NCBI RefSeq assembly: GCF_001426185.1
Contig: NZ_LMRP01000003.1
Coordinates: 124,001-188,000 of the forward strand
Direction of reading: 5' to 3'
Origin: Rhodococcus sp. Leaf247
GTDB taxonomy: Bacteria > Actinomycetota > Actinomycetes > Mycobacteriales > Mycobacteriaceae
Length of the DNA: 64,000 nucleotides
The first letter of the stretch is position 1. Each line of letters starts with the position of its first letter. Both the position numbers and the translations under genes were made by a program. Below, piece by piece: positions 15,495 through 19,571 of this stretch. The notes under the pieces are model-generated. The model worked only from the letters and a program-made list of their open reading frames with translations. It was not told the origin of the DNA and did no database searches.

Positions 15495-18203
15495 ATGGCA
15501 GGCAAGACGAGTACGCGCGCGTCCCGATCCGGGAGTACCGGATCGACCAGGGCAGGCACAGGCAAGAGCAGTGCCACGTCGACAGGACGCGGGCGGACGG
15601 TCACCACGCCGCGCAAGCCCACCGCACCACGGCAGTCCGGTGCCCGGCAGTCGGCTCCTCGCACCTCGTCGGGGACGCGGGCGCGGCCCGCCGCCAAGCG
15701 GTCGTCCGTATCGCCGGGCATGGCTGCGCTGAACTCGATGGGTCGCGGTGTCGGCAAGGGCTGGTCACTCGCTGCCCGCGGACTCGGAGCCACCACGCGC
15801 ACCGTCGGCAAAGCAGCGGACATCGAGCACGGACACCGTCGGGACGGGCTCGCGCTGGGCGCTCTCGCCGTGAGCGTCGTCGTCGCGGCCGGACTGTGGT
15901 TCTCCGCAGGTGGGCCCGTCGGAGAGTGGATCGAGATCGGGTTGCGCGCCGTGGTCGGCAGCGCAGCCGTCGTTCTGCCCCTGCTCGGTATCGCCGTCGC
16001 CGTGGCGCTGATGCGCACCGAGCCCAAGCCGGACACCCGGCCACGTCTCGTACTCGGTTCCGTCCTCGTCGGACTTCCCATGCTCGGGTTGTGGCATCTG
16101 GGCGCAGGATCTCCCGACGACGCCACCGGACGCGCGTCGGGCGGTGGTTTCGTCGGATTCGTCGTCGGTGGACCTCTCAGCAGTGGTGTCACGGTGTGGT
16201 TGGCGGTGCCGCTGCTGCTCCTCGCAATCCTGTTCGGAGTCCTGCTTCTCACCGGTACGACAGTCCGCGACATCCCCGCGCGGCTGCGGACGCTGTTCGG
16301 CACTCGCGACCGCGGTGACGAGTACGGCGAGTACGACGCTCGCTATGACGAGGGTTACGACGACGAGTTCGCACCCGACGGCTACGACCGGTCCTACGAC
16401 TCCTACGGTTCGGACGACAGCCGGGACGACTACGACCCGGCGCTGTTCGACGCCGACGGATACCCGGTGGACGAGAAGCCGAAGACTCGGCGCCGTCGAG
16501 GTGCTGCTCCGGTCGATCCCGACGCTGCCTATCCGGTCGACGAGCCGACCGAGTACGTTCCCGTGGCGCCGCCTGCTGCGAAGGCGAAGCCCGTACCGGC
16601 CCCGACACCCCCTCCGGCCCCGAAGCCGAAACCCGCACCGGTCGTCGCGGCCACGCCGCCGAAGCCCGCGGACGAGGACAAGCTGGTCGTCGACCGGGTC
16701 GTCGACGGCGACTACGTCCTTCCGTCGCTGTCGCTGCTCATCGCCGGGGATCCGCCCAAGACTCGGAGCCAGGCCAACGACACGATGATCGAGGCCATCT
16801 CCGAGGTTCTCGAGCAGTTCAAGATCGACGCGGCCGTCACCGGGTTCACCCGTGGACCCACGGTCACCCGGTACGAGGTCGAGCTCGGCCCCGGCGTCAA
16901 GGTCGAGAAGATCACCGCCCTGGCGCGCAACATCGCCTACGCCGTGGCCACCGACAACGTCCGACTCCTCGCCCCGATCCCCGGCAAGTCGGCCGTGGGC
17001 ATCGAGGTGCCCAACTCGGACCGCGAGATGGTGCGCCTGGCGGACGTGCTGACCGCGTCGTCGACGCGCAAGGATCATCACCCCCTGGTCATCGGCCTCG
17101 GCAAGGACATCGAGGGCAACTTCGTCAGTGCGAACCTGGCGAAGATGCCGCACCTGCTGGTCGCCGGCTCGACGGGCTCGGGTAAGTCGAGCTTCGTCAA
17201 CTCGATGCTCGTGTCGCTGTTGGCGCGCGCGACGCCGGAAGAGGTCAGGATGATCCTGATCGACCCGAAGATGGTGGAGCTCACGCCGTACGAGGGCATT
17301 CCGCACCTCATCACCCCGATCATCACGCAGCCCAAGAAGGCCGCCGCGGCCCTGGCGTGGTTGGTCGAGGAGATGGAGCAGCGCTACCAGGACATGCAGG
17401 CCAATCGGGTTCGGCATGTCGACGACTTCAACAAGAAGGTGAAGTCGGGGGAGATCACCGCACCGCTCGGCAGTGAGCGTGTCTACAAGCCCTACCCGTA
17501 CATCCTCGCGATCGTCGACGAGCTCGCCGACCTGATGATGACGGCGCCTCGCGACGTCGAGGAAGCGATCGTGCGGATCACGCAGAAGGCCCGCGCGGCC
17601 GGTATCCACCTGGTTCTGGCGACGCAGCGACCGTCGGTCGACGTGGTGACGGGCCTGATCAAGACCAACGTGCCCTCGCGCCTGGCGTTCGCGACGTCGT
17701 CGCTGACCGACTCGCGCGTGATCCTGGATCAGCAGGGCGCCGAGAAGCTGATCGGCATGGGTGACGCGTTGTTCCTGCCGATGGGCGCCGGCAAGCCCAC
17801 CCGTCTGCAGGGTGCGTTCATCACCGACGAGGAGATCACGGCCGTCGTCGACTTCGCCAAGAACCAGGCGGAGCCGGAGTACCAGGAGGGTGTGACCGCG
17901 CAGAAGGCCGCGGAGAAGAAGGACGTCGACGCCGACATCGGCGACGATCTCGACGTGCTGCTCCAGGCTGTCGAGCTGGTGGTCACCAGCCAGTTCGGGT
18001 CGACGTCGATGTTGCAGCGCAAGCTGCGGGTGGGTTTCGCGAAGGCCGGCCGTCTGATGGACCTGATGGAGACCCGAGGCGTCGTCGGGCCCAGCGAGGG
18101 ATCGAAGGCTCGTGATGTTCTGGTCAAGCCGGACGAGCTGGACGGCTTGTTGTGGTCGATCAAGGGCGGAAATCCTGCCGAATCGGACAACCCGGACGAA
18201 TGA
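15495..18203 (+). CDS. ftsK: DNA translocase FtsK
   Basis: FtsK is a septal ATPase pumping chromosomal DNA during division and activating dimer resolution. The 902-residue protein has a basic Ser/Thr/Arg-rich N-terminus, membrane segments between about 110 and 255, and an acidic Tyr/Asp then Pro/Ala-rich linker (about 270-390). The RecA-like motor has Walker [10 protein letters not shown] near residue 560 and the signature [16 protein letters not shown]. The C-terminal gamma winged helix ([19 protein letters not shown]) reads polar DNA motifs. The ATG start lies 71 bases after the TIGR03085 gene. Confidence 0.97.
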
Positions 18204-18302
18204 TTGTGGTCTGATGTGAATTGACTCTCAGACTGCCTGAGTTTTACCTGTGCATTACCTTCAGGGGGCGCAAATCGCTGCTCGGCTGTGGCACTCTTGT
18301 CC

Positions 18303-18464
18303 ACAGGAGGGGAGTATCCCCAGCTTGCGAAGGACCCGTCAGCACGATCGAGCCCTGCCTCGATCCGGGTCATCGGCAGTATCGACGGTCACGAGACATC
18401 ACCGTTCGACACTGTGGGAGAGACCTCCGGAGCCCAACCATGGACTACCGGAGGTAGTTGCCAC
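18303..18464 (+). promoter_or_regulatory. yybP-ykoY family manganese riboswitch with RBS-sequestering platform
   Basis: The 260-base gap before terC contains the conserved L1 element GGGGAGTA (18309-18316) and the L3-side element TGTGGGAGAGACC (18413-18425). Between them lie stacked helices: GACCCG 18333-18338 with CGGGTC 18366-18371, GATCGAG with CTCGATC inside that, CAGT 18377-18380 with ACTG 18411-18414, and ACGGT/ACCGT. P1 is GGAGG 18306-18310 with CCTCC 18424-18428. The same CCTCCGG (18424-18430) is perfectly complementary to CCGGAGG (18448-18454), which contains the terC ribosome binding site. This predicts translational control: ligand-stabilised P1 would free the RBS. The Mn2+ ligand comes from knowledge of the family, which commonly controls TerC/Alx exporters. 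Confidence 0.9.
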
Positions 18465-19571
18465 ATGAATGTCTCACCCACAGTCTGGATCGTCACCATC
18501 GTGGTGATTCTCGGACTTTTCGTCTTCGACTTCTTCGCTCACGTGAAGACGCCCCACGAGCCGACCTTCAAGGAATCGGCGACGTGGTCCGTCGTCTACA
18601 TCACGATCGCCATCATCTTCGGCGGCATCGTGTTCTGGCAGTACGGCGCAACCTTCGGCGGTGAGTACTTCGCCGGGTACGTCACCGAGAAGGCGCTCAG
18701 CGTCGACAACCTGTTCGTCTTCCTCATCATCATGACGACGTTCGCCGTGCCGCGTCAGTACCAGCAGAAGGTGCTGCTCATCGGCATCGTGATGGCACTC
18801 GTCATGCGCGGTGGCTTCATCGCCCTCGGTGCCGCGGCCATCAACAACTTCAGCTGGGTCTTCTACCTCTTCGGTGCATTCCTCATCTACACGGCCTACA
18901 AGCTCATCAAGGAAGCCGGGGAAGAGGAGGAGAACGAAGTCCAGCAGGACACCAAGATCATGAAGTTCGCCAAGAAGATCCTCCCCACCACGGACGAGTA
19001 CCACGGTGATCGTCTGACGGTGAAGATCGACGGCAAGCGCGTGGTCACCCCGATGCTGCTGGCCCTGGTCGTCATCGGCTTCACCGACATCCTGTTCGCG
19101 CTCGACTCGATCCCGGCCATCTACGGCCTGACCACCGAGCCTTACATCGTCTTCACCGCCAACGCGTTCGCACTGATGGGTCTGCGTCAGCTGTACTTCC
19201 TCATCGGCGGACTGCTCGATCGCCTGGTGTACCTGTCCTACGGTCTGTCGCTGGTCCTCGCGTTCATCGGTGTGAAGCTGGTGCTGCACGCCCTGCACGA
19301 GAACGAGCTCGGCTTCATCAACGGCGGCGAGAACCTGAAGGTGCCCGAGATCAGCACCGGCCTCTCGCTCAGTGTCATCATGGGCATCCTGATCGTCACC
19401 ACCGTGGCTAGCCTGCTCAAGACCCGCGGCGATGCGAAGCCCGCGGCGAAGGGCGACCAGACCGGAAGCCCGGTCCTCGGCGACGACGACACCACGGCCG
19501 CCTCGACCGGCACGACGTCGACCGGCACCACGTCGACCAGTGTCACGGACACCGAGCGCGACTCGCGCTGA
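18465..19571 (+). CDS. TerC family integral membrane protein (putative Mn2+ exporter)
   Basis: A 368-residue protein with about nine transmembrane segments. The hallmark metal-site motifs are ALSVDNLFVFLIIM and GFTDILFALDSIPAIYG, with paired Asp/Asn residues in the membrane. TerC/Alx-type proteins export manganese or assist metalation of exported proteins; the upstream manganese riboswitch supports a metal role. The C-terminus (from about 325) is a hydrophilic Thr/Ser-rich tail. ATG 18465 follows GGAGG by 10 bases. Earlier in-frame starts would lie inside the riboswitch and are rejected. Confidence 0.93.
   Translation: MNVSPTVWIVTIVVILGLFVFDFFAHVKTPHEPTFKESATWSVVYITIAIIFGGIVFWQYGATFGGEYFAGYVTEKALSVDNLFVFLIIMTTFAVPRQYQQKVLLIGIVMALVMRGGFIALGAAAINNFSWVFYLFGAFLIYTAYKLIKEAGEEEENEVQQDTKIMKFAKKILPTTDEYHGDRLTVKIDGKRVVTPMLLALVVIGFTDILFALDSIPAIYGLTTEPYIVFTANAFALMGLRQLYFLIGGLLDRLVYLSYGLSLVLAFIGVKLVLHALHENELGFINGGENLKVPEISTGLSLSVIMGILIVTTVASLLKTRGDAKPAAKGDQTGSPVLGDDDTTAASTGTTSTGTTSTSVTDTERDSR

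Follow-up and report, generated by a model that had tools for sequence, protein, structure and literature searches.

The terC locus and its leader

The window, by which we mean the whole 64,000-nt stretch of DNA that was analysed, carries terC at 18465-19571 on the plus strand, with an ATG start at 18465. Its translation is an integral membrane protein of 368 amino acids that matches the Pfam TerC family (E 3.6e-53), and its nearest TerC relative, from Rhodococcus sp. UNC23MFCrub1.1, shows 96% identity, in keeping with a Rhodococcoides/Rhodococcus-type genome as the origin of the window. Gene ftsK (15495-18203) is directly upstream, and the RNA element reported here is located inside the 260-nt gap between the two genes (Table 1). 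The first-pass annotation had placed the element before terC; the assignment of that gene stands, and the context is conserved. An open reading frame of 427 amino acids that begins at GTG 18288 and shares the terC frame is unsupported, since a conserved structured RNA occupies the leader and the ATG at 18465 has a proper Shine-Dalgarno (SD) sequence. The terC leader contains no consensus match to a sigma-70-type promoter; an actinobacterial -10 immediately 5' of 18306 is possible. No intrinsic terminator is present from the aptamer to the terC start codon, which rules out this type of expression platform, and the sole terminator-like site, 18227-18241, is upstream of the aptamer. A mini-ORF, ATG GAC TAC CGG AGG TAG (18440-18457), overlaps the SD; in same-genus relatives its start at 18440 is ATG, TTG or CTG, other relatives do not have it, and the SD helix described below probably gives rise to it as a by-product.

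Table 1. Parts of the terC leader and of its proposed expression platform.
Element	Positions	Strand	Pairing and basis
P1.1 5' strand, GGAGG	18306-18310	+	pairs with 18424-18428; helix checked pair by pair
L1 5' strand, GGAGUA	18311-18316	+	GGGGAGUA motif spans 18309-18316; matches X. oryzae L1 (PMC6754395)
P1.2 5' strand, UCCC	18317-18320	+	pairs with 18416-18419
Junction linker, 7 nt, replacing helix P2	18321-18327	+	linker of 4-10 nt in 60/60 homologues
P3.1 5' strand	18328-18338 (18328-18330 and 18333-18338)	+	pairs with 18366-18375; strong covariation
L3 bulge, UCAGCAC, 7 nt	18339-18345	+	7-mers compared with PMC6754395
P3.2 hairpin	18346-18365 (helix 18346-18352/18359-18365)	+	covariation, pair check
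P3.1 3' strand	18366-18375	+	covariation, pair check
P4 hairpin	18376-18415	+	helix base covaries; predicted fold
P1.2 3' strand, GGGA	18416-18419	+	two-sided changes
L1 3' strand, GAGA	18420-18423	+	GAGACC in 57/60 homologues, GAGACU in 3/60
P1.1 3' strand, CCUCC	18424-18428	+	CCUCCGG is 18424-18430; covariation, pair check
Anti-SD strand, ACCUCCGG	18423-18430	+	overlaps P1.1 3' strand; 8-bp perfect helix with 18448-18455
SD-holding strand, CCGGAGGU	18448-18455	+	CCGGAGG 18448-18454; SD core GGAGG 18450-18454, 10 nt before ATG

A probable aptamer of the alx type

The motif GGAGGGGAGUAUCCCC...CGUCARCACG...GGGAGAGACCUCCGG precedes terC in Rhodococcus, Rhodococcoides, Prescottella, Williamsia, Gordonia and Aeromicrobium and is conserved 5' of the gene in 26 aligned sequences. 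A covariance model, R1, was built on 23 actinobacterial leaders; three members with a long P3, which were misaligned in the alignment, were excluded from it and served as held-out tests. R1 finds these three Williamsia/Gordonia leaders (E 4e-9 to 3e-12), recovers, with E values of 5e-4 to 2e-6, five of the six actinobacterial loci flagged by RF00080 or by the motif (L110, the remaining one, scores E 0.05), and picks up the leader of Escherichia coli alx, aligned in register, at 41.6 bits and E 3.9e-7; the R1 search does not find E. coli mntP. Among the 26 close relatives 95.4% of cells are paired, with a covariation score of 0.306 versus 0.156 in shuffled and at most 0.105 in slid controls. 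In an alignment of 60 homologues, which was made to the model and leans towards the structure, 95.9% are paired, two-sided cells number 327 versus 79.5 after shuffling, and the covariation score is 0.516 versus 0.183 shuffled and at most 0.123 slid. None of 500 shuffles reached the observed aptamer covariation score. Two-sided changes are found in all five aptamer helices across the 60 sequences, including P1.1 (GC/AU/UA, with 17 such changes at one pair) and all four pairs of P1.2, whose variants are UCCC/GGGA, UUCC/GGAA, GCCC/GGGC and, in alx, ACUU/AAGU. The yybP-ykoY L1, L3 and nested helices recognised in the first-pass annotation are confirmed by pair-by-pair inspection, covariation and homology to alx. 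A longer P1 drawn from CCACAG (18301-18306) and CUGUGG (18412-18417) was rejected; it clashes with P1.2 and is missing in relatives.

The core features of the Mn2+ (yybP-ykoY) riboswitch class are present in the terC leader. L1, with GGGGAGUA on its 5' side and GAGA-CC on its 3' side, lies between P1.1 and P1.2, and its 5' motif recurs in 58 of the 60 homologues, E. coli alx among them. The 7-nt L3 bulge has adenine as its third residue, as does the 7-mer of the crystal structures, in which this residue senses Mn2+ (ACA48UACU in Xanthomonas oryzae, UCA41AUUC in Lactococcus lactis; PMC6754395); A18341 would accordingly occupy the position of A41 and A48. The 7-mer is UCAGCAC in the window, UCAUUAC in alx and UCANNAC in nearly all homologues, with A in third place wherever the 7-mers align in register, and L1, GAGACC and the L3 7-mer all agree with the crystal-structure elements. 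Genes of Mn homeostasis (TerC, P-type ATPase, GDT1/UPF0016) are found downstream. Helix P2 and the four-way junction are absent from 60 of 60 aligned members, alx included, and since alx is an accepted member without P2, this helix is not required for membership.

The first-pass annotation had called for a scan with the Rfam yybP-ykoY model and would have given up its proposal if no covariance model matched. RF00080 (Rfam 15) indeed gives no match in the window at the gathering score, none on the terC leader at E<=10 and none on the terC leaders of eleven relatives, and in 299 genomes of the order its cut-off is never exceeded, but the model is blind to the alx-like subtype. As a control on the E. 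coli K-12 loci L112:3873-4000 and L113:2962-3058, RF00080 fails to find the E. coli alx leader at E<=1 and gives E. coli mntP 41.6 bits, under the gathering score of 45; the leaders of both genes are published Mn2+ riboswitches (PMC9603457). Since RF00080 misses alx, the missing match is no argument against membership and was dropped as a refutation. What it reflects is the threshold of the model, and it says nothing about the structure that defines the family; RF00080 seems to lack the 3' part of L1/P1.

Among the closest known counterparts is alx, which shares with the terC leader the L1 pair GGGGAGUA/GAGACC, P1.2 in register, an L3 of UCANNAC followed by G-C, a short linker without P2, the P3 and P4 arms and a downstream gene of the TerC family. 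It differs in P1.1, which is AAAGG/CCUU in alx and GGAGG/CCUCC in Rhodococcus, and in its longer expression platform; in the Rhodococcus leader an 8-bp helix joins the P1.1 3' strand directly to the SD strand. Members of RF00080 with an L3 of the X. oryzae type have the same L1 motif, GAGACC and P3 arm with a 7-nt L3 and A third, but the Rhodococcus L3 is UCARYAC and not ACAUACU, P2 is absent, and Rfam 15 gives no match. In Corynebacterium glutamicum, an RF00080 leader of terC (cg2157) was predicted with an older Rfam at 49.13 bits and the transcript was seen by RNA-seq (PMC3890552); compared by description, it likewise places a riboswitch before terC, in another genus. The E. coli mntP leader is also a Mn2+ riboswitch that frees the ribosome-binding site (RBS) with Mn (PMC11647493), but it has a different downstream gene and is not matched by R1.

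A second riboswitch is present in the same genome at C2:1231078-1231207 (L115:1501-1630, minus strand), with an R1 match at E 1.2e-7 and no RF00080 match at the cut-off. Its L3 is ACAUACU, of the X. oryzae type, and it precedes a gene for a GDT1/UPF0016 divalent cation antiporter (E 4.8e-44), a family that includes the Mn exporter MneA (PMC13274385). In a pattern search of the 4.53-Mb genome, GAGACC stood 85-115 nt after L1 at two sites, each of them before a Mn-related gene; the reversed control had no such site.

Pairing with the Shine-Dalgarno strand and the proposed switch

The P1.1 3' strand, when extended to ACCUCCGG, pairs perfectly with the SD-holding CCGGAGGU. Both pairings claimed for CCTCC in the first-pass annotation, with GGAGG at 18306 or, as CCTCCGG, with CCGGAGG at 18448-18454, were recovered and are conserved in most relatives. 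In most relatives with readable downstream sequence, the SD lies in a strand that pairs with the extended P1.1 3' strand, often over 8-11 bp (for example CCUCCGGUAG/CUACCGGAGG and CCUCCGGCAG/CUGCCGGAGG). In 34 of 56 leaders the SD helix is better than with shuffled downstream sequence (p<=0.05). A GGAGG/CCUCC P1.1 automatically gives some complementarity to any SD. The three strands involved read GGAGG/CCUCC/GGAGG in most members, GAAGG/CCUUC/GAAGG in L137 and GAGAG/CUUUC/GAAAG in L133 and L140; P1.1 and SD strands that change in step are what mutually exclusive pairing predicts. Covariation of the SD helix is weak within the close clade because its strands hardly vary there, and three members (L143, L128 and L142) have no clear SD helix, indicating that the platform is not universal.

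Folding predictions describe the competition between these pairings. In the free leader the SD is predicted to be paired with a probability of about 1, and when the aptamer core is kept folded, the predicted energies of the P1.1 and SD-helix states differ by about 1 kcal/mol at most, which in the model is a poised switch. Nearest-neighbour folding of the whole leader, whose energies take no account of the L1 motif, of docking or of metal, predicts an OFF state favoured by about 10 kcal/mol, in which a local L1 hairpin displaces P1.1/P1.2; switching would then need to be kinetic or paid for by docking, and on this model the default state is probably OFF and the switching kinetic. The 5' strand of L1 and P1.2, GGGGAGUAUCCCC (18309-18321), is able to form the local hairpin, with 5 pairs possible in 40 of the 60 homologues and no pairs in 16. 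In Rhodococcoides an imperfect palindrome, ACUACC-GGA-GGUAGU (18443-18458), surrounds the SD, and its hairpin could keep some of the SD covered when the switch is ON.

On sequence grounds the terC leader is very likely a member of the known Mn2+ riboswitch class, of the alx L3 type and without P2, and Mn2+ binding is expected. That it acts as a translational ON switch of this type is a reading we hold with considerable confidence, and control through exclusion between P1.1 and the SD helix is the likely means; ligand, switching direction and level of control are what we infer. Without Mn2+, the anti-SD strand (18423-18430) would pair with the SD-holding strand (18448-18455) and hide the SD. 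Binding of Mn2+ between L1 and L3 would dock the two arms and stabilise P1.1 (GGAGG/CCUCC), thereby withdrawing CCUCC from the SD strand and allowing TerC to be made. A corresponding behaviour is known for E. coli mntP, the RBS of which is inaccessible without Mn and freed with it (PMC11647493). The description of a simple translational ON switch in the first-pass annotation holds as to the switch, for which conserved P1.1/SD exclusion, homology and gene context speak; "simple" was optimistic, since local L1 and SD hairpins compete.

Several other readings were weighed against this translational switch. Control by the Mn2+ riboswitch might be mainly transcriptional, with Rho truncating the untranslated leader, or terC RNA in its early part, as long as the SD is hidden; Rho- and riboswitch-dependent control has been reported for E. 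coli mntP (PMC11647493), and the aptamer is not followed by an intrinsic terminator before the start codon, the only terminator-like site being upstream. We regard such a mainly transcriptional mode as unlikely, though worth keeping in mind, because in most leaders conservation of the SD-sequestering helix reaches as far as the SD, a pattern for which translational control alone accounts, and Rho action would add to SD sequestration rather than replace it. A rather doubtful elaboration treats the actinobacterial terC leaders as a distinct P2-less subtype with a three-way switch in the 5' strand: in the OFF state the GGGGAGUAUCCCC hairpin would dismantle L1, P1.1 and P1.2 while CCUCCGG hides the SD, and Mn2+, perhaps together with alkaline pH as in alx, would have to act during transcription.

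The conserved fold might also answer another signal, such as pH or another divalent metal, given that the alx riboswitch responds to alkaline pH as well (PMC9603457) and that the terC leader is divergent enough to escape Rfam. This is improbable in view of the retained L1, L3 and position of the sensing adenine and of downstream genes from Mn-associated families; in Vibrio, Mn induces both GDT1/MneA and TerC under a riboswitch of this class (PMC13274385). Chance resemblance, with a GC-rich hairpin covering the SD of an otherwise ordinary leader, would fit the lack of an Rfam match and a high GC content that makes CCTCC/GGAGG complementarity common, but it is scarcely credible, being already refuted by the R1 match to alx (E 3.9e-7) and by covariation; the pattern moreover occurs twice in the genome, 5' of Mn genes both times, and never in the control.

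Spread and loss among Actinomycetota

R1 matches at E<=0.1 occur in at least 54 of 396 sampled Actinomycetota genomes, a lower bound with 8 candidates scored per genome, and RF00080 exceeds its cut-off in one of the 396. Thirty loci from the phylum search and the genome itself are followed by TerC (23), a P-type cation ATPase (5), GDT1 (1) or the contig end (1). Three loci with an ACAUACU-like L3 in other families of the order (L085, L086 and L110) have Na/Ca-exchanger-family proteins downstream, a family that includes YrbG. YrbG is listed under a Mn2+ riboswitch in a Vibrio (PMC13274385).

Nocardia and the R. erythropolis clade retain terC without the riboswitch: none of their 23 terC loci tested has a match at E<0.05, and the best score among them, 17.7 bits, falls on the minus strand of L032, far from the leader. 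Nocardia terC loci (L009, L014, L018, L026, L032, L033, L044 and others) share a block resembling GGACAAATCGGGCATGATGG-N4-CATGA about 25-60 nt before the terC start, a candidate promoter or operator. In the R. erythropolis/globerulus/qingshengii clade (L017, L022, L031, L035, L040 and L042) the ftsK-terC gap has shrunk, the riboswitch is gone and only a CGGAGG-type SD is left before terC.

The kind of riboswitch is already known; what is useful is the unrecognised subtype and its spread. Rfam 15 overlooks the whole alx-like L3 subtype, an annotation blind spot whose recognition is the added value of this work, and a corrected model would bring many Mn-regulated genes into annotation. With the three-way changes of P1.1 and SD, translational switching in high-GC Gram-positives can be tested cleanly. 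For Rhodococcus-type bacteria the leader would link TerC to direct Mn2+ sensing, and by the census the same putative link may extend to TerC and P-type ATPases across Actinomycetota.
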